DNA of 32,459 nucleotides from contig JAEUTF010000061.1 in the NCBI GenBank assembly GCA_016788185.1, forward strand, positions 1 through 32,459, written 5' to 3'. This document shows positions 16,206-26,017 of this stretch, one piece after another. How positions within the stretch are numbered: position 1 is the first letter of the stretch; each line of letters opens with the position of its first letter. A model generated the notes under the pieces. It did no database searches, was not told the origin of the DNA, and was given only the letters and a program-made list of their open reading frames with translations. This stretch comes from Bacteroidia bacterium (lineage in GTDB: Bacteria > Bacteroidota > Bacteroidia > AKYH767-A > OLB10). The position numbers and the translations under genes are program-made.

Positions 16206-17153
16206 ATGAACCTATATAGCCTTGCCATTCACGGAGGTGCCGGAACCATCAGCCGGAAATCACTGCGTCCGGAAATGGAAAAACAGTACCGGGAAGCCCT
16301 GGAAACCGCCCTTCAGTCCGGCGAACAAATATTGAAAAAGGGAGGTTCAGCTATGGATGCCGTTATACAATCGGTGATGAGCCTTGAAGACTGCCCGCTT
16401 TTCAACGCAGGCAAAGGTTCGGTTTTTACCCATGATGCAAAACACGAAATGGATGCCTCGGTGATGCGCGGCGATACCCTTGGGGCAGGCGCGGTGGCAT
16501 GTGTCCAACAGGTGCGAAATCCGGTATTGCTGGCCCGGAGGGTGATGGAACAGTCTGAACACGTGATGCTGAGTGGACGAGGAGCGGAGGAATTCGCCCG
16601 GGGACAAGGCATCGCCTTTGAAAGCGATGAATACTTTTATTCTGAAATCCGTTTCCGGCAATTAAAAGATGCCATTCATGAGGACAGGATTCAACTGGAT
16701 CATACCCCGGAAGATAAAAAATTCGGAACCGTAGGTGCCGTAGCCAGGGATGCGAATGGATTACTGGCGGCGGCTACCAGTACCGGTGGAATGACCAACA
16801 AGCGCTATAACCGCATCGGCGACAGCCCGGTGATCGGTGCAGGCACCTATGCCAACAACCGAACCTGTGCCATCAGCTGCACCGGACACGGCGAGTATTT
16901 TATCCGTGCGGTAGTCGCCTATGACATCTCCTGTCTGATGGAATACAAAGGCATGAGCCTTTCCGAAGCCTGTCACCTTGTGGTGATGGAAAAATTAAAA
17001 CAACTGGGTGGCGAAGGCGGTTTGATCGCCGTAGATGCGGCCGGTAACATCGCCCTGCCTTTCAACTCCGAAGGGATGTACAGGGCCTGGGTGCGGAAGG
17101 GGGAACCCTTACAAACGGCCATTTACAAGGATGAGATCAGTTCAGCGGAATAA
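16206..17153 (+). CDS. iaaA: Isoaspartyl peptidase/L-asparaginase, Ntn-hydrolase
   Basis: A 315-residue plant-type asparaginase precursor. It cleaves isoaspartyl dipeptides and asparagine and matures by self-cleavage before the nucleophile Thr175 in the segment KKFGTVGAVA. The N-terminus has IHGGAG, and GGSAMDAV and FNAGKGSV (66-73) line the site; GGMTNKRYNRIGDSP, followed by TGHGEYFIR, is the C-terminal subunit signature. There is no signal peptide, so a cytoplasmic role in repair-peptide or amino-acid breakdown is likely. It follows yggS on the same strand and converges on a DUF5723 gene, the 3' ends overlapping by 17 bases. Confidence 0.93.
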   Translation: MNLYSLAIHGGAGTISRKSLRPEMEKQYREALETALQSGEQILKKGGSAMDAVIQSVMSLEDCPLFNAGKGSVFTHDAKHEMDASVMRGDTLGAGAVACVQQVRNPVLLARRVMEQSEHVMLSGRGAEEFARGQGIAFESDEYFYSEIRFRQLKDAIHEDRIQLDHTPEDKKFGTVGAVARDANGLLAAATSTGGMTNKRYNRIGDSPVIGAGTYANNRTCAISCTGHGEYFIRAVVAYDISCLMEYKGMSLSEACHLVVMEKLKQLGGEGGLIAVDAAGNIALPFNSEGMYRAWVRKGEPLQTAIYKDEISSAE

Positions 17154-18588
17154 GGTTTTCCTTCATCCTTGGTTTCCGTCCACCTTTCCCATCGGCACAC
17201 TTTCCGAAATTTTTAATGGAGACACCAAAATAGACATTGGCGCCATACGCATCGGTAATTCCCAACAAGGCACCGGGCATATCGGTGCCCAGGCTGAAGG
17301 CTCCCACTCTTACGCCTAATCCCATTCTTGGTCTGAAATAGTCGTACAGGGAAACAGGAAGGGAAATCTCAAAACCACGGGTCTCAAAACGGGGTGTCAC
17401 TGCAATCTGACTGCTTCTTCGTATGGCATTTTCACCAGCAGGAATTCCCTGGAGGATTGAAAAATTGATGAAATAATGCTGTTTCAGTGCCCAATCAAAC
17501 TGAAGTGAGGCGGCAGCCGGTAAATACATGGTAAAACTGCTGCGAAGCAAGGATGGATCATAGATTCCATTGAGTTGTGCATTGATAACAGAATCAGAAT
17601 TCATACTACCGTCCAGATTGGTGGTATCAAATCCAAACCAGTCGGCCCCCCGAACATCGAAACGGTATGCGCTAGCCTGGTTGTTAAAGCGAATGTAGCC
17701 CGCATCCAACAGGGATATCCCGAGTTTCCAGTCATACGGCTTTCCATCAGGCGCCTCTTTACAGGGATTGTAAAATTCTTCATTCCTGTTTCTGATATAC
17801 TGCATGCCTATCGAAGTACTCCAACCACTCCCCCGGTTTGTAAGTAAATCAGCGGCGGAAATTCCACCTTCAGAAGGCAGCGCATAACCGTAACTTCCGG
17901 AAAGCGATTCCAGCACCGGTAGCGTGTCGGCAGGAAGCGCATAACTTGCATGATCAATGGTAACAAAGGCGCCGTGAAGGCCATAATTGTAATTCAGGCT
18001 AAGTCCCGCCGTGAAAAATGATTTCGGCTGGTTTAACAGGACCATGGCTACACTCCCGCCGATGGAGTTCCAGTTCAGCAGGCCGATGGAAAGATCCCTG
18101 ATCTGGTACGCCGCACTTCCCTGTGGAGCCGGGTCAAAACCATCCTTCAGGTTACCGGCCAGATGAGAAGGCACATTGGCGGCGCTGGCTTCAAGCCGTA
18201 CAGACGTATGAAAGGCAAAGGAAAATTTCTTTCCCGAATGGATGAAGCCGGGCAATTTAACAAAGCCGGAGGCATAGGCCTGCTTGTCATCTTCTGAATC
18301 ATTGGTCATTAACTTTTCATCGCCGTTCGCCTCGGACTTGAATCCATTTTTCAAGACTTTGCTGTTTTTACGCAGGTACAGGTAGTTGTTCATCAGCGCC
18401 TGATCGAACGATAAGATATGGAATTCATTGCGGTAAGGCGCCGCCGCGATAGAAGCCGGATTGAGTTCGAGGCCCATCTGGCCGGCGTAATTACTGCCTG
18501 AGAGCCCCCACATTTCCTGGGCACTCGTCCTGTTGACAAGGGAAGCTAGCAGAAATACGATAGAAATTAAAAAGAGACTGCGGATCAT
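17137..18588 (-). CDS. DUF5723-type outer-membrane protein, paralogue A
   Basis: A 483-residue exported protein. The signal peptide ends around TSAQ before EMWG. The mature part has alternating strands and the LNPASIA segment near residues 50-57, a signature shared by many Bacteroidota barrel proteins of the PorV/FadL kind. YNYGL, LPAAAS and FRPRMGLG are shared with the next gene, its paralogue, along most of the length. I infer a beta-barrel in the outer membrane; function unknown. A TTG at 18597 extends the frame, but ATG 18588 gives a clean signal peptide. The 3' end overlaps the asparaginase gene by 17 bases, with no room for a separate terminator. Confidence 0.75.
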   Translation of the reverse strand: MIRSLFLISIVFLLASLVNRTSAQEMWGLSGSNYAGQMGLELNPASIAAAPYRNEFHILSFDQALMNNYLYLRKNSKVLKNGFKSEANGDEKLMTNDSEDDKQAYASGFVKLPGFIHSGKKFSFAFHTSVRLEASAANVPSHLAGNLKDGFDPAPQGSAAYQIRDLSIGLLNWNSIGGSVAMVLLNQPKSFFTAGLSLNYNYGLHGAFVTIDHASYALPADTLPVLESLSGSYGYALPSEGGISAADLLTNRGSGWSTSIGMQYIRNRNEEFYNPCKEAPDGKPYDWKLGISLLDAGYIRFNNQASAYRFDVRGADWFGFDTTNLDGSMNSDSVINAQLNGIYDPSLLRSSFTMYLPAAASLQFDWALKQHYFINFSILQGIPAGENAIRRSSQIAVTPRFETRGFEISLPVSLYDYFRPRMGLGVRVGAFSLGTDMPGALLGITDAYGANVYFGVSIKNFGKCADGKGGRKPRMKENLIPLN

Positions 18589-18884
18589 ACTGTTCAATAA
18601 GTTGGTTCAGGATGCAAGTAATGGCAAGCCTGTCCAAAAAGAGATCAAGCTGCCGCATTTCTTACAAAACCAAGGTTCGCTTCCACTTTAGCGGGATGAT
18701 GCAAAAAGGCTGAGAAACAGGAATAGCAAAGCGGATGCTGAACGACATCAGCCCGAAATATTCAGGCTTGCTTTATGCTGAACCTCCGCCTGGAAAAAGC
18801 GAATTGGCCAGTTGCATCGCGCAGTATCGCCCTTCATCTGAAAAACTGACGTTTGGACGAATTCAATCCGGAATTGAGTGTGAT
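18589..18884. other. 296-bp spacer between DUF5723 paralogues
   Basis: No gene was recognised on either strand. The longest plus-strand frame (from 18735) runs antisense into the paralogue and lacks any family resemblance. No exact TAnnTTTG box or terminator hairpin was seen, so whether the two paralogues share a transcript is open. Confidence 0.4.
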
Positions 18885-20333
18885 TTACTTCGGTGTCTTA
18901 CAATTCTCAATATTGGGTCTTCTCCCCCTTCCCGATCCCGAACCATCGCAACCCTTGAAACTTCTCCAGGCCAGGCCGAAATACAGGTCAGCCCCATAGG
19001 AATCCGTAATGCCCAGCAAAGGACTGATCATATCCGTGCCGATCGTTAAAATTCCGAACCGAAGCCCCAAACCTATGCGCGGACGAAACTGCTCGTAAAA
19101 AGAAAATGGCATGGAAATTTCAAAATGCCGTGATTCATACCGAGGGGTCAACGCCACCTGATTGGCCCGACGCAGGGAATAAGGGCCGAAAGGTATGCGT
19201 TGCAGGATGCTCAGGTTCAGAAAAACATTTTCGTTAAAAGGAACATCCAGCTGTACCGAAGCCGCAGCCGGAAGAACCATACGCATGCTGCGCTGATCAC
19301 GGGAACTCCGGGAATTTCCATAGAACTGTTCACTCAATATTGAATCAGTAGTGACCCAATCATCAAATTTCACCGTGTCAATTCCAAACCAGGCTGTATT
19401 GCGGTTATCGAAAAGGTAAGTTCGGGTTCCTTCAGTGTAATGGAGGTATCCTATGTCCATCAGTGAAACGCCCAGGCGATAGTCGTATGGCTTTTCACCG
19501 TTGTTGCGTTTACAGGGATTAAAAAATGCTTCGTTTCGGTTTTTAAAGAACTGCACCCCTGCCGTAAACGAATAACCTTTCCCTCTTTTTGCGAGCGGAT
19601 CATTGCTTCCCCGGGTGCCATTGTCGGGTAAAGCGTGTCCGTATTCAGCCTGGATGTTGTTCACGATCAGCAGGGTGTCGGCCGGTAAAATATAATCGGC
19701 ATCGTCCAACCTGACATACACCCCAGTGAGACCGTAGTTGTAATTGAGCGTGACCCCACCTGTCCAGAAATACTCCTTCGAATCATGCAAGACCCCGGCT
19801 ATCGTGACGCCGAATTCGTGCCAGGTAAGCAGGCCCGCACGCAGGTTTCTGACCGCATAATTGGTGTTTTGCTGAGGGTTGTAATCGAATCCTTCTTTCA
19901 GGTATTTCGCAAGATGATAGGGCACCTTGCTGGCACTTAACTCCGCCCGGGTGGAGACATGAAAAGCGGCAGATAATTTTTTCCCGGACCAGATGAAAGC
20001 CGGGTATTTCAAAAAAGCGGACCCGTAAGCGAATTTGTCCGGATTCCTGGTGTAGCGGTCCGTAAATTTATCTTCTTCTACGCTTTCTCCTTTAACGCTT
20101 TTACGGATCAACCTGCTGTCACCCTTCAGGTACATGTAGTTGTTGAGAATGGAAGCATCCAATGAAACAAAGTGTATTTCCCAGCGGTAAGGTGCATCCG
20201 CAATGGAAGCCGGGTTCAGGTCTATTCCCATCTGACCAGCGTAATTGCCGGGTGCCGCCCCCCACATTTCCTGTGCATACGCCCCGGTACCCAGACCGGT
20301 TAACAGGTACAACATCAGGAGTTGAATGCGCAT
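18885..20333 (-). CDS. DUF5723-type outer-membrane protein, paralogue B
   Basis: A 482-residue paralogue of the gene at 17137-18588. Both begin after the signal peptide with QEMWG, carry NYAGQMG and LNPASIA, and share ILPADTL-type strands, NRNE, NPCK, KPYD, LPAAAS and LLGITD; differences are concentrated in loops. The signal peptide here ends at GAYAQ. The start is ATG 20333 (the codon before it is TTG). The C-terminal tail is basic (GRGRRPN). The tandem arrangement points to local duplication. It follows the FAD oxidoreductase gene by 101 bases on the same strand. Confidence 0.75.
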   Translation of the reverse strand: MRIQLLMLYLLTGLGTGAYAQEMWGAAPGNYAGQMGIDLNPASIADAPYRWEIHFVSLDASILNNYMYLKGDSRLIRKSVKGESVEEDKFTDRYTRNPDKFAYGSAFLKYPAFIWSGKKLSAAFHVSTRAELSASKVPYHLAKYLKEGFDYNPQQNTNYAVRNLRAGLLTWHEFGVTIAGVLHDSKEYFWTGGVTLNYNYGLTGVYVRLDDADYILPADTLLIVNNIQAEYGHALPDNGTRGSNDPLAKRGKGYSFTAGVQFFKNRNEAFFNPCKRNNGEKPYDYRLGVSLMDIGYLHYTEGTRTYLFDNRNTAWFGIDTVKFDDWVTTDSILSEQFYGNSRSSRDQRSMRMVLPAAASVQLDVPFNENVFLNLSILQRIPFGPYSLRRANQVALTPRYESRHFEISMPFSFYEQFRPRIGLGLRFGILTIGTDMISPLLGITDSYGADLYFGLAWRSFKGCDGSGSGRGRRPNIENCKTPK

Positions 20334-20434
20334 CAAATGGGGCTTGAAAGGATCCCCTATTTAACGTCAAATTCCGTGCAAAAGTTGCTGTTCCGATCCG
20401 GACCGGTCATTTTAACCGCCAGACGGGAATCCGC

Positions 20435-22042: not shown

Positions 22043-22050
22043 TAATTTTG
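22043..22050 (+). promoter_or_regulatory. -7 box (TAATTTTG) of the amidoligase-cluster esterase
   Basis: Exact TAnnTTTG match 17 bases before the ATG at 22068. No -33 TTG at the usual spacing. It is the best candidate promoter for the cluster. Confidence 0.45.
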
Positions 22051-22067
22051 CCTATTAATTTCATAAA

Positions 22068-22778
22068 ATGAAAGAAGAATACGTTAAGTGGTTTTCCCCC
22101 ACACTGGGTCACGAAACCGAAATGCTGGTTTTCGGAACCGGTGGCCGGCCGGTCGTCATCTTTCCCACATCCATGGGAACCTATCATCAAAACAAAGATT
22201 TCAAGCTAATTGACAGTGTTGAGTGGTTTGTAAACAGCGGGCTGGTTAAAATCTATTGCCCCGACAGTGTAGATGAACATTCCTTTTACGAGGAAATGAT
22301 CCATCCCGGCGAGCGAATCCGCCGGCACCTCGTGTACGACCGCTTTATCCTGGATGAGGTGGTTGGACGCGCCAGCCAGGAAACTGCACAGCACAAGGTG
22401 ACGGTAGCCGGCTGCAGTTTTGGGGGATACCAGGCCATTAACTTCGCTTTCAGGCACCCCGACCGCGTATCGAACGTATTCAGTATGGGAGGCGCTTTCG
22501 ACATCACCAATCACATGGATGGCTATTACGACGAAAGTGTGTATTACAACAATCCGGTTGATTTCCTCGGGGGACTGCAGGATGAAAACCTTTGGAAAAT
22601 GGGCATCATCCTCGGTGTTGGCGAACACGACTTCTGTTTGCCACAGAACAAGCGGCTGGCAGAAATAATGGCCAGAAAAGGCATGCCCTACTGGCTGGAT
22701 ATCCGTCCCGGAATGCCGCATGACTGGCCAGCCTGGCGAGAAATGCTTCCCACGTATTTCGGAAGGATGGAATTCTGA
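22068..22778 (+). CDS. Esterase-like alpha/beta hydrolase, first gene of amidoligase cluster
   Basis: A 236-residue alpha/beta hydrolase of the putative-esterase kind (esterase D/Ag85-like). The nucleophile elbow GCSFGG puts Ser117 in place, Asp188 in GEHDFC is the probable acid, and His218 in GMPHDWPAW closes the triad. There is no signal peptide. The substrate is unknown. It begins a run of same-strand genes: an ATP-grasp enzyme, a GCS2 ligase and a glutamine amidotransferase. A hydrolase beside amide-bond-forming enzymes could release or deprotect an intermediate. The 136-bp gap to the next gene contains a weak hairpin, so continuous transcription is not certain. Confidence 0.8.
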   Translation: MKEEYVKWFSPTLGHETEMLVFGTGGRPVVIFPTSMGTYHQNKDFKLIDSVEWFVNSGLVKIYCPDSVDEHSFYEEMIHPGERIRRHLVYDRFILDEVVGRASQETAQHKVTVAGCSFGGYQAINFAFRHPDRVSNVFSMGGAFDITNHMDGYYDESVYYNNPVDFLGGLQDENLWKMGIILGVGEHDFCLPQNKRLAEIMARKGMPYWLDIRPGMPHDWPAWREMLPTYFGRMEF

Positions 22779-22847
22779 GAGCGATCCGCCCCGGGGATTG
22801 CAGCGCTTACTCCGGATGGTCAGGAACTCCGCATGTGAGGCTATTAA

Positions 22848-22875
22848 AAAACCGGCAGCCTGCTAGCACGGTTTT
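22848..22875 (+). terminator. Weak hairpin between the esterase and ATP-grasp genes
   Basis: AAAACCG (22848-22854) pairs with CGGTTTT (22869-22875) around a 14-base loop. The stem is short and the only T run is within it, so at most partial termination or attenuation is expected. Confidence 0.25.
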
Positions 22876-22914
22876 CAGTAAATTCGAACCAGATAAACTT
22901 TAACATTTACGCTC

Positions 22915-23916
22915 ATGAAACGTATTGGAATCATGCATGGCATGGAACGCAGTTTTCCAGATGCCCTTATCGAAAGAATTAATTCAAAAAATGAACCGGG
23001 CATCCAGGCCGAACTGGTAAAAATCGACAAATGCATCCAGGGTGAATCCACTCCTTATCATGTCATTCTCGACCGCATTTCGCAGGATGTTCCTTTTTAC
23101 CGCGCTTACCTGAAAAATGCAGCGCTGTGCGGAACCGCCGTCTTAAACAACCCCTTTTGGTGGAGTGCCGATGAAAAATTCTTCAATAACTGCCTGGCGA
23201 TACGTCTGGGGATTCCGGTACCCAAAACCTGCCTGCTCCCTTCCAATCAATGGCCTACCGATACCAGTGAGGCTTCTTTCCGGAACCTGGCCATGCCTCT
23301 CGACTGGCAGGGAATGTTTGAGTACACCGGTTTGCCGGTGTACATGAAACCCCATGCGGGCGGAGGATGGAAGAACGTATTTCAACTGGATACGCAGGAC
23401 GGCTTTTTTCAGTCGCATCAAACCACCGGCCAGCTGGTGATGCTGCTGCAGGAAGAAATAAAATTTGAATCCTATTTCAGAGTGTACTGTATCGGTCAGC
23501 GTGATGTAAGAATCATGGAATACGAACCCCGCAACCCGCACCACCTGCGTTATGTGCACAACAAGTTCAATGCGGACAAAAAATTACTCGATACCATCCT
23601 GGATTATACCTACCGCCTCAACGAAGCCCTGGGCTATGACTTCAACACGGTTGAATTTGCGGTAAGGGACGGAATCCCTTACGCCATCGACTTCTGCAAT
23701 CCGGCTCCGGACGCCGACATCCACAGCGTGGGCCAGGAGAACTTCGACTGGGTCATTGAATCGGCCGCCAACATGTGTATCCGCCGGGCAAAGTCTCACC
23801 GCGAGAATGCAGACAACCTTACCTGGGGCACGTACATGAAAAACGCCACCATGGGAATGGCTACCGGCCATGATGTGCCGAAATTCGGACACACCCCTGA
23901 AATTGAAAAAGCGTAA
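22915..23916 (+). CDS. ATP-grasp enzyme
   Basis: A 333-residue ATP-grasp fold protein that would activate a carboxylate as acyl phosphate and join it to an amine or thiol. Residues 142-151 (VYMKPHAGGG) form the ATP-phosphate loop with Lys145, QEEI near 179-182 is the adenine-binding hinge, and FNTVEFAVRDG with IDFCNPAPDAD (243-268) supplies the Mg ligands Glu247, Asp259 and Asn262. The N-terminal part (1-100) is a preATP-grasp-like domain beginning MKRIGIMHG. It does not match glutathione synthetase or D-Ala-D-Ala ligase closely. It stands between an esterase and a GCS2-type ligase. A strong hairpin follows its stop codon. Confidence 0.8.
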   Translation: MKRIGIMHGMERSFPDALIERINSKNEPGIQAELVKIDKCIQGESTPYHVILDRISQDVPFYRAYLKNAALCGTAVLNNPFWWSADEKFFNNCLAIRLGIPVPKTCLLPSNQWPTDTSEASFRNLAMPLDWQGMFEYTGLPVYMKPHAGGGWKNVFQLDTQDGFFQSHQTTGQLVMLLQEEIKFESYFRVYCIGQRDVRIMEYEPRNPHHLRYVHNKFNADKKLLDTILDYTYRLNEALGYDFNTVEFAVRDGIPYAIDFCNPAPDADIHSVGQENFDWVIESAANMCIRRAKSHRENADNLTWGTYMKNATMGMATGHDVPKFGHTPEIEKA

Positions 23917-23926
23917 GCGAATGCGG

Positions 23927-23951
23927 GTGCCGGAGGAAGTTTCTCCGGCAC
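23927..23951 (+). terminator. Strong hairpin after the ATP-grasp gene
   Basis: A perfect 9-bp GC-rich stem (23927-23935 with 23943-23951) and a 7-base loop begin 11 bases after the stop. The 3' side reads TTTGCTTTC rather than a pure T run, so it may be a partial terminator or an RNA stabiliser between cistrons. Confidence 0.5.
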
Positions 23952-23999
23952 TTTGCTTTCGCTGGCACCTGTAAAAATCACTGCGGAACCATTCATTTA

Positions 24000-24011
24000 C
24001 GGGGATCCCCG
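24000..24011. promoter_or_regulatory. 12-bp palindrome CGGGGATCCCCG upstream of the GCS2 ligase
   Basis: A perfect palindrome 26 bases before the ligase ATG. Its half-sites CGGGGA and TCCCCG recur, spaced by two bases, inside the carA promoter (26962-26975). A shared operator is possible, but chance is not excluded. Confidence 0.25.
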
Positions 24012-24037
24012 GCCCCGGCTCAAAAAACCATTCACTT

Positions 24038-25135
24038 ATGACCATGTTTACTTTAGGTATTGAAGAAGAATTTCAGATCATTGACCCCGAAACGCGTGAG
24101 CTGAGGAGCCATATGCACCAGATCATTGAAGGGGGTAAAACCACGCTCAAGGAACAGGTAAAAGCGGAAATGCACCAGAGCGTGGTGGAGGTGGGTACGA
24201 ACATCTGCCGTGATGTGGACGAGGCCAGGAAGGAAGTCACGTACCTCCGCAGGATGATCGGGGAAATTGCCGCCAAGCAGGGCCTGCTTTTCGCAGCAGG
24301 CGGCACACATCCCTTTTCACGCTGGCAGGATCAGCTGATCACGGATCACCCCCGCTACCATGAAATTGTCGACAAATTGCAGGATACGGCCAGAGGCAAC
24401 CTCATTTTCGGGCTTCACGTGCACGTTGGCATCCCCAGCCGTGAAATTGGTATTCAGCTGATGAACCAGGCCCGCTATTTCCTGCCGCACATCTTCGCGC
24501 TTTCGGCCAACTCTCCGTTCTGGCTGGGAAGGAACACCGGATTTCAGGCCTACCGTACCAAGGTGTTTGATAAGTTTCCGCGTACCGGCATCCCTGAGTA
24601 TTTTTCAAGTGTGGCCGAATACGACAGCTATGTGAATCTGCTGATTAAAACCAATTGCATCGACAATGGAAAGAAAATATGGTGGGACCTTCGCCTGCAC
24701 CCTTTCTTCGAAACCATTGAATACCGGATTTGCGATGTGCCCATGCGCATCGATGAAACCATTGCACTGGCCGCCCTGATGCAAGCCGTCACAGCAAAAA
24801 TCTACAAGCTGATGAAACAAAATCTCAGCTTCCGGAATTACAGCAGAGCGCTGATCAATGAAAACAAATGGAGGGCGGCCCGCTATGGCATTCACGGCAA
24901 ACTGATCGATTTTGGCAAACAGGAAGAGGTGGAAACCAAGGCCCTCATTTATGAATTGCTGGACTTTGTGGATGATGTGGTGGACGACCTGGGCAGTCGA
25001 CATGAGTTGCGTTACATTGAAAAGATGCTGGAGCAGGGAACCGGTGCCGACCGGCAGTTGAAGATTTACGAAAATACCGGAGATCTGAAAGATGTGGTAG
25101 ATTACATGGTAAGTGAAACCAATTACGGGATCTGA
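24038..25135 (+). CDS. YbdK/GCS2-type carboxylate-amine ligase
   Basis: A 365-residue member of the glutamate-cysteine ligase family 2 (YbdK). These enzymes join the gamma-carboxyl of glutamate, or another carboxylate, to an amine with ATP. The N-terminus has GIEEEF (7-12) with the metal-binding Glu residues, FGLHVHVGIP covers 124-133, LSANSPFW is at 155-162, and IEYRICDVP supplies the later metal ligands. Length is normal for YbdK. The true substrate of most YbdK proteins is unknown, and here the gene lies between an ATP-grasp enzyme and a glutamine amidotransferase, so glutamate-cysteine ligation should not be assumed. ATG 24038 or the next Met two codons later are both possible starts. Confidence 0.9.
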   Translation: MTMFTLGIEEEFQIIDPETRELRSHMHQIIEGGKTTLKEQVKAEMHQSVVEVGTNICRDVDEARKEVTYLRRMIGEIAAKQGLLFAAGGTHPFSRWQDQLITDHPRYHEIVDKLQDTARGNLIFGLHVHVGIPSREIGIQLMNQARYFLPHIFALSANSPFWLGRNTGFQAYRTKVFDKFPRTGIPEYFSSVAEYDSYVNLLIKTNCIDNGKKIWWDLRLHPFFETIEYRICDVPMRIDETIALAALMQAVTAKIYKLMKQNLSFRNYSRALINENKWRAARYGIHGKLIDFGKQEEVETKALIYELLDFVDDVVDDLGSRHELRYIEKMLEQGTGADRQLKIYENTGDLKDVVDYMVSETNYGI

Positions 25136-25165
25136 ACGTAAAAAAACGATTCCGATCAGCAGCGC

Positions 25166-26017
25166 ATGCAGGGCAAGGAAAGCAATATTATCAGAGTCGC
25201 CATTCTCGACCTTTACAACAATGAACCCAATGAGGGGATGCGGGGCATTTTGTCACTGCTGGAGCGTCAAGCGGTACCCGCCCCATTTACTCTTGAGTAC
25301 AAACGATTTGACGTACGTTTCAAGGATGAAGTGCCGGATGATTCTTTCGATATTTACATCAGCAGCGGAGGTCCGGGCAGCCCGCTCGAAGAACCGGGAG
25401 CGCAGTGGGAAAAAGATTATTTCCGTCTGATAGACCGTCTATGGGAAATCAATAAGGAAGATCGCTCCTCCAAAAAATTCGTCTTCTTCATCTGTCATTC
25501 CTTTCAGCTCATGTGCCGGCACCTGGAACTGGCCGAAGTCACCAAAAGACATTCAACGGCTTTCGGAATTTTTCCGGTGCACAAACTGGAAGCAGGCTTT
25601 CAGGAACCTTGTTTCAGCGCTATTCATGATCCGTTTTATGCGGTAGACAGCCGCGACTGGCAGGTCGTGCAGCCGGACCGGAAGAAAATGCAAAGGACCG
25701 GTGCTGAATTGCTGGCCATTGAAAAAGAACGAAGTCATGTTCCCTACGAACGGGCCGTCATGGGCATCCGTTTCAGCCCGGAAATGATCGGAACACAATT
25801 CCATCCGGAAGCCGACCCGCTGGGCATGCTTCATTATCTTCTTCGCAAAGACAAAAAAGAAATTATTGTGCGACATCACGGACAGGAAAAATACGATGAG
25901 ATGCTTTTACACCTGAATGATCCCGACAAAATCAGCCTGACGCAATCCGGCATTATCCCGGCTTTTCTGACCAACGCGATCCGCCAGACCATCCGCCTGG
26001 CCGGATTAACGGTTTAA
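25166..26017 (+). CDS. Class I glutamine amidotransferase-like protein with unusual elbow
   Basis: A 283-residue class I glutamine amidotransferase (GATase1) protein. SSGGPGSP at 66-73 is the oxyanion loop, Cys110 in FFICHSFQL is the nucleophile, and His213 with Glu215 in GTQFHPEADP complete the triad. The elbow is C-H-S-F-Q where the usual sequence is C-x-G-x-Q, so the Gly after the nucleophile is replaced. About 65 extra residues follow the triad. There is no fused synthase domain, so it may deliver ammonia to a partner, or act on a gamma-glutamyl product as peptidases of this fold do. It starts 30 bases after the GCS2 ligase gene and is very likely cotranscribed. Confidence 0.82.
   Translation: MQGKESNIIRVAILDLYNNEPNEGMRGILSLLERQAVPAPFTLEYKRFDVRFKDEVPDDSFDIYISSGGPGSPLEEPGAQWEKDYFRLIDRLWEINKEDRSSKKFVFFICHSFQLMCRHLELAEVTKRHSTAFGIFPVHKLEAGFQEPCFSAIHDPFYAVDSRDWQVVQPDRKKMQRTGAELLAIEKERSHVPYERAVMGIRFSPEMIGTQFHPEADPLGMLHYLLRKDKKEIIVRHHGQEKYDEMLLHLNDPDKISLTQSGIIPAFLTNAIRQTIRLAGLTV

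Follow-up and report, generated by a model that had tools for sequence, protein, structure and literature searches.

Small pseudopeptides made by stand-alone ligases are already known from other gene clusters. A GCS2 ligase and a ligase of the glutathione-synthetase fold form the textbook pair for glutathione-like thiols, and transient gamma-glutamyl protection is known from the polyamine (Puu) and butirosin pathways. Peptidylpolyamine synthetase is the function given for YgiC and YjfC, and Cp1B of the E-64 pathway, an amide-forming ATP-grasp enzyme, couples epoxysuccinate with an amino acid (PMC12568646). In aniline breakdown, a GATase-like enzyme found beside a gamma-glutamyl ligase hydrolyses a gamma-glutamyl amide (PMC4539516, PMC11335346). 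For the gene combination described here, and for the exchange of two of its ligases (C and F) for a single one (K2), no description was found in a full-text literature search, though the 2009 survey of amidoligase operons (Iyer and colleagues, Mol BioSyst) may overlap.

The four genes of the window

The window, that is the whole stretch of 32,459 nucleotides that was analysed, contains four intact and open ORFs which are co-directional on the + strand. Gene A (22068..22778, +) encodes a 236-aa alpha/beta-hydrolase of the PF00756 'putative esterase' family and is followed by gene B (22915..23916, +), encoding a 333-aa ATP-grasp ligase of predicted RimK fold. Gene C (24038..25135, +) encodes a 365-aa GCS2/YbdK-type carboxylate-amine ligase (NCBIfam NF010039) and gene D (25166..26017, +) a 283-aa class-I glutamine-amidotransferase-like protein with a conserved C-terminal extension. 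The first-pass annotation had placed these four families on one strand with all motifs intact, and this was borne out by the ORF coordinates, the Pfam and NCBIfam matches and the predicted fold of B, as well as by the conservation of the relevant residues of A, B and D, which was judged across 10-13 relatives.

Protein C has matches to PF04107 (GCS2, E 3.5e-63) and to NF010039 'carboxylate-amine ligase' (E 9e-165, 547.8 bits against a cutoff of 371) placing it among the GCS2/YbdK-type carboxylate-amine ligases, while it fell below the cutoffs of the glutamate–cysteine ligase models. It was alone in having a clear solved relative by sequence (YbdK type) in searches of the PDB, where the profile of A found solved esterases as distant matches only and those of B and D found nothing. 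Protein A matched PF00756 in a Pfam profile search (E 4e-10), with Ser117 (GCSFGG), Asp188 and His218 invariant in the relatives. Protein D is a member of the class-I GATases, with a PF00117 match of E 7.6e-7 (29.4 bits against a cutoff of 22.8) and an invariant triad of Cys110 (ICHS), His213 and Glu215.

No Pfam family was matched by B in a profile search, and its match to the RimK-family model TIGR00768 was weak (E 1.4e-3, 18 bits, not reaching the cutoff of 143.4). Its AlphaFold (AF2) model (pLDDT 81.8) has the RimK/LysX ATP-grasp fold, with the best match to RimK itself (Z 20.3, rmsd 2.9 over 259 residues), followed by LysX/ArgX (Z about 19) and Ddl-type small-molecule ligases (Z 17-18). 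The glycine-rich GGGWK and D259-x(2)-NP are invariant in the relatives, which provides both the glycine-rich loop and the metal ligands of the ATP-grasp fold. This fold leaves the substrate unfixed, as RimK-like enzymes also modify proteins.

The genes are separated by gaps of 136 bp (A-B), 121 bp (B-C) and 30 bp (C-D). Between B and C (23927..23951, +) there is an inverted repeat whose 12-nt arms are 1 nt apart and 92% complementary; it received no terminator call in a consensus scan and, by its sequence, is possibly a hairpin or a partial terminator. Inverted repeats were also present between B and C in some close relatives, and thus a single transcript is uncertain in this genus. Scans for sigma-70 promoters and terminators performed no better than on shuffled sequence. 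The sequence TAATTTTG at 22043-22050, 17 bases upstream of the start codon of A, is similar to the −7 promoter element of Bacteroidota (consensus TAnnTTTG), and a chance match is quite possible. It should also be noted that two adjacent genes of one family, each encoding about 485 aa, lie on the − strand of the window (17137-18597 and 18885-20336), and since both match one single gene in relatives a tandem duplication in the genus is suggested.

A fifth gene and the conserved neighbourhood

Relatives of B were found as at least 585 coding matches in GTDB stretches, and B was present in 17 of 61 genomes comprising the window genome and its relatives. The neighbourhoods were read for the best 80 of the at least 585 matches, whose titles are those of Bacteroidota in a broad sense, including Ignavibacteria. 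Most of these 80 loci have the order A-B-C-D, and A-B-C-D(-F), with F a fifth gene, occurs across the Bacteroidota and Ignavibacteria loci. The check for conserved neighbours across Bacteroidota that had been proposed for the four families was therefore run and passed, with A-B-C-D recurring in dozens of genomes. Median gaps in the relatives were 43 bp (A-B), 28 bp (B-C), 38 bp (C-D) and 6 bp (D-F); with such tight spacing the A-B-C-D group has the appearance of an operon, even if the genes of the window are spaced more widely. The first-pass annotation had taken these four genes as the whole unit, and while they are indeed conserved neighbours, F and often a second, divergent esterase (EST2) also belong to it.

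Gene F, which encodes about 396 aa, lies downstream of D, usually directly after it, in 53 of 95 clustered sequences (94 loci and the window, with a few pairs of loci perhaps being near-duplicates). In the window genome, F is located on contig C88 (52% identity), away from A-B-C-D, and a candidate for EST2 is on contig C146 (48% identity), so that the set of this genome appears complete but split. No Pfam match was obtained for F; PF03738 (GSP_synth) was absent for two F proteins, and a fused F protein scored 13.8 bits against this model, short of the cutoff of 29.3. The predicted model of F (pLDDT 91.6) has the fold of the eukaryotic glutathione synthetase, GspS and YgiC group, with Z values of 25.6 for YgiC, 24.2 for GspS, 22.4 for Cp1B and mostly 20-24 for eukaryotic glutathione synthetases. 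The matches to the glutathione-synthetase/GspS/YgiC group span 313-370 residues, hence the whole chain, and are clear of other ATP-grasp proteins (3k1t, Z 12.6; the rest, 8.0 or less). By sequence profile, the PDB gave only a weak match to YgiC (E 0.023).

Some neighbours of these genes were seen in a few loci each. An 867-aa ORF in locus L120 (5637-8240, +) consists of an N-terminal sodium:solute symporter (PF00474) fused to F, and in locus L124 of a related genome a similar symporter has a gene of its own immediately upstream of F; the fusion may point to an imported substrate. In the lineage of L121, L127, L128, L131, L136 and L138, F is immediately preceded by a gene of about 480-510 aa which is amidohydrolase-like, its family having been assigned by eye. 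Between A and B, an extra alpha/beta-hydrolase gene is present in L068, L084, L099, L103 and L110, which are titled as or resemble Cyclobacteriaceae, and belongs to PF12146 in L099, the one tested. In L152 and L153, the gene immediately after B resembles histidine/aromatic ammonia-lyases, again by eye. A class-III aminotransferase gene which recurs beside the cluster was dropped as a general component, because copies taken from its two types of location turned out to be distinct paralogues (28% identity in the pair compared).

Co-inheritance of the ligases and the permuted ATP-grasp

The presence of the genes was then compared across a sample of 247 Bacteroidota genomes for which a completeness of 90% or more was requested. 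B was found in 86 genomes, a count taken after removal of partial weak matches, C in 79, F in 73 and D in 59. B and F are shared by 70 genomes, with B alone in 16 and F alone in three, while B and C are shared by 70 and C and F by 68. Fisher p values for B-C, B-F and C-F ranged from 1e-35 to 1e-43, which ignores shared ancestry and overstates independence. B and F lie at most 8 kb apart in only 41 of their 70 shared genomes, so the link at the genome level holds even where the genes are scattered. Pairwise protein distances of the five families across 46 loci were correlated with a Mantel r of 0.86-0.92, to which shared ancestry contributes. Together, the recurring order, the co-occurrence in genomes and the tight gaps rule out chance adjacency.

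For A, only matches of cluster grade were entered, by judgement (46 genomes), because weaker matches to A are general esterases; A lies at most 8 kb from B in 43 of the 44 sampled genomes holding both, a figure which this curated list biases towards linkage. A is not present in many of the genomes with B, C and F. C itself is missing in five genomes with B and F (G097, G122, G216, G236 and G270), and is thus either not obligatory or replaced.

Replacement was seen in genomes with B and without F, 13 of 16 of which encode K2, a circularly permuted ATP-grasp protein (PF14403). Only one of the 70 genomes with B and F has a relative of K2, of 37% identity and located elsewhere. In all eight loci read, K2 lies between B and D, giving the order A-B-K2-D, with A undetected beside B in two of the eight; a more distant GCS2 protein is encoded elsewhere in five of the 13 K2 genomes. 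K2 therefore occupies the place of C (and F), a single permuted ligase standing in for two. The most conserved core is B with C and F, or B with the permuted ATP-grasp, and C and D are dispensable in some lineages. This replacement narrows the chemistry, since whichever version is present has to supply the same B, D and A.

About a third of the sampled Bacteroidota (86/247) carry B, mostly with its core partners, and both B and F are without a Pfam family despite this wide spread. No plasmid matches were found for B or F, and the distribution of the cluster, in single copy and in many families, looks like that of core metabolism. From a module of such broad distribution, apparently chromosomal and single-copy, a product generally useful to the cell would be expected. 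Its carriers include cultured Algoriphagus, Dyadobacter, Mucilaginibacter and Pedobacter, which opens the question to direct experiment.

Proposed pathway and comparison with known systems

The constant core of B with either C and F or K2 is read as a stand-alone, multi-ligase amide pathway. We give a probability of about 0.55 to the genes encoding most of a chromosomal, ribosome- and NRPS-independent pathway to a small pseudopeptide, a free metabolite, by glutathione-like chemistry. For the substrates, the order of steps, the roles of A and D and the nature of the product as a free small molecule, we infer the following. C would phosphorylate a carboxylate and couple it to an amino acid or an amine, the gamma-carboxylate of glutamate being the probable substrate. 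A second amide bond would be added to this product by F, in the way of the synthetases for glutathione, homoglutathione and glutathionylspermidine, and a third by B, with its predicted RimK/LysX fold. By analogy with the GATase-like protein of aniline breakdown, the most likely role of D is the cleavage or trimming of a gamma-glutamyl amide. A and the second esterase encoded elsewhere in the genome may act on an ester in the substrate or the product, by hydrolysis or transfer; the first-pass annotation had proposed that the esterase would release or trim the product. A tentative extension, at rather less than even odds, is that the product is an undescribed cofactor-like or stress metabolite of about a third of the sampled Bacteroidota, made by three ligases of different families, two of which some lineages have swapped for one permuted ATP-grasp with the rest of the operon unchanged.

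In agreement with the first-pass annotation, which saw no carrier protein or peptide precursor, none recurred beside the cluster among neighbourhood ORFs of at least 80 aa; as only ORFs of this size were called, a short precursor could escape detection.

The role of D bears on two other explanations. C could add a transient gamma-glutamyl group to a reactive amine, with B and F building on it and D removing the group at the end, as the Cys-His-Glu kept in D, the near restriction of D to genomes with B (58 of the 59 with D) and the gamma-glutamyl amide hydrolysis in aniline breakdown (PMC4539516, PMC11335346) would suggest. We consider this unlikely, as F occurs without D in 27 genomes and D persists where the permuted ATP-grasp replaces C, so that D does not follow C in the way expected of a deprotecting enzyme; it is also often directly beside F or K2. 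The other explanation has D as a glutaminase subunit feeding ammonia to one of the ligases, with a primary amide in the product. The membership of D in PF00117 with intact catalytic residues is in keeping with this, and D and F, with a median of 6 bp between them in relatives, look like a functional pair, but many genomes with B, C and F are without D. To our knowledge, those enzymes with the F fold that have been characterised take amino acids or amines as substrates and not channelled ammonia, and we regard ammonia supply as quite improbable.

It is very doubtful that B adds residues to a protein in the manner of RimK, with C and F making the tag. Its best fold matches do act on proteins, namely RimK on ribosomal protein S6 and LysX/ArgX on LysW, but the Ddl-type ligases match B nearly equally (Z 17-18 against 20), the characterised relatives of C and F act mostly on small molecules, and no small carrier or ribosomal protein gene recurred beside the cluster among neighbourhood ORFs of at least 80 aa. 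A low-molecular-weight thiol replacing bacillithiol or glutathione, which the pairing of a GCS2 ligase with a glutathione-synthetase fold would call to mind, is most improbable, since BshC of bacillithiol synthesis is present in 242 of the 247 genomes, the window genome included, regardless of the cluster, and no pattern of replacement is seen. A second, additional thiol beside bacillithiol is possible.

Read as a multi-ligase pathway to a small pseudopeptide, the cluster resembles the aniline system AtdA1/AtdA2 in having a ligase predicted to form glutamyl amides beside a free GATase-like protein (PMC11335346), although its ligase belongs to the GCS2 rather than the GS-like type and the cluster has no oxygenase. 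With the E-64 pathway (Cp1B ATP-grasp and Cp1D amide synthetase), the dapdiamides and the cystargolides it has in common the NRPS-independent formation of pseudopeptides by stand-alone amide-forming enzymes, and Cp1B has the same fold as F (PMC12568646). It differs from these in that no epoxidase, warhead gene or adenylate-forming amide synthetase was seen in the cluster, and in a distribution resembling that of core metabolism. The predicted model of F shares its whole fold with GspS and YgiC/YjfC (Z 24-26), a likeness of fold which does not imply a polyamine substrate. Unlike GspS, F is without an amidase domain, and it has an invariant Glu112-x-Gln114 at the position where GspS has Glu-x-Asn. 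As in glutathione and homoglutathione biosynthesis, a GCS2 ligase and a ligase of the glutathione-synthetase fold would take part in one pathway. However, the identity of F to glutathione synthetases is only about 10-12%, C belongs to the YbdK/NF010039 group and lies under the cutoffs of the glutamate–cysteine ligase models, and beyond this pair the cluster has B as a third ligase, together with esterases and a GATase-like protein.
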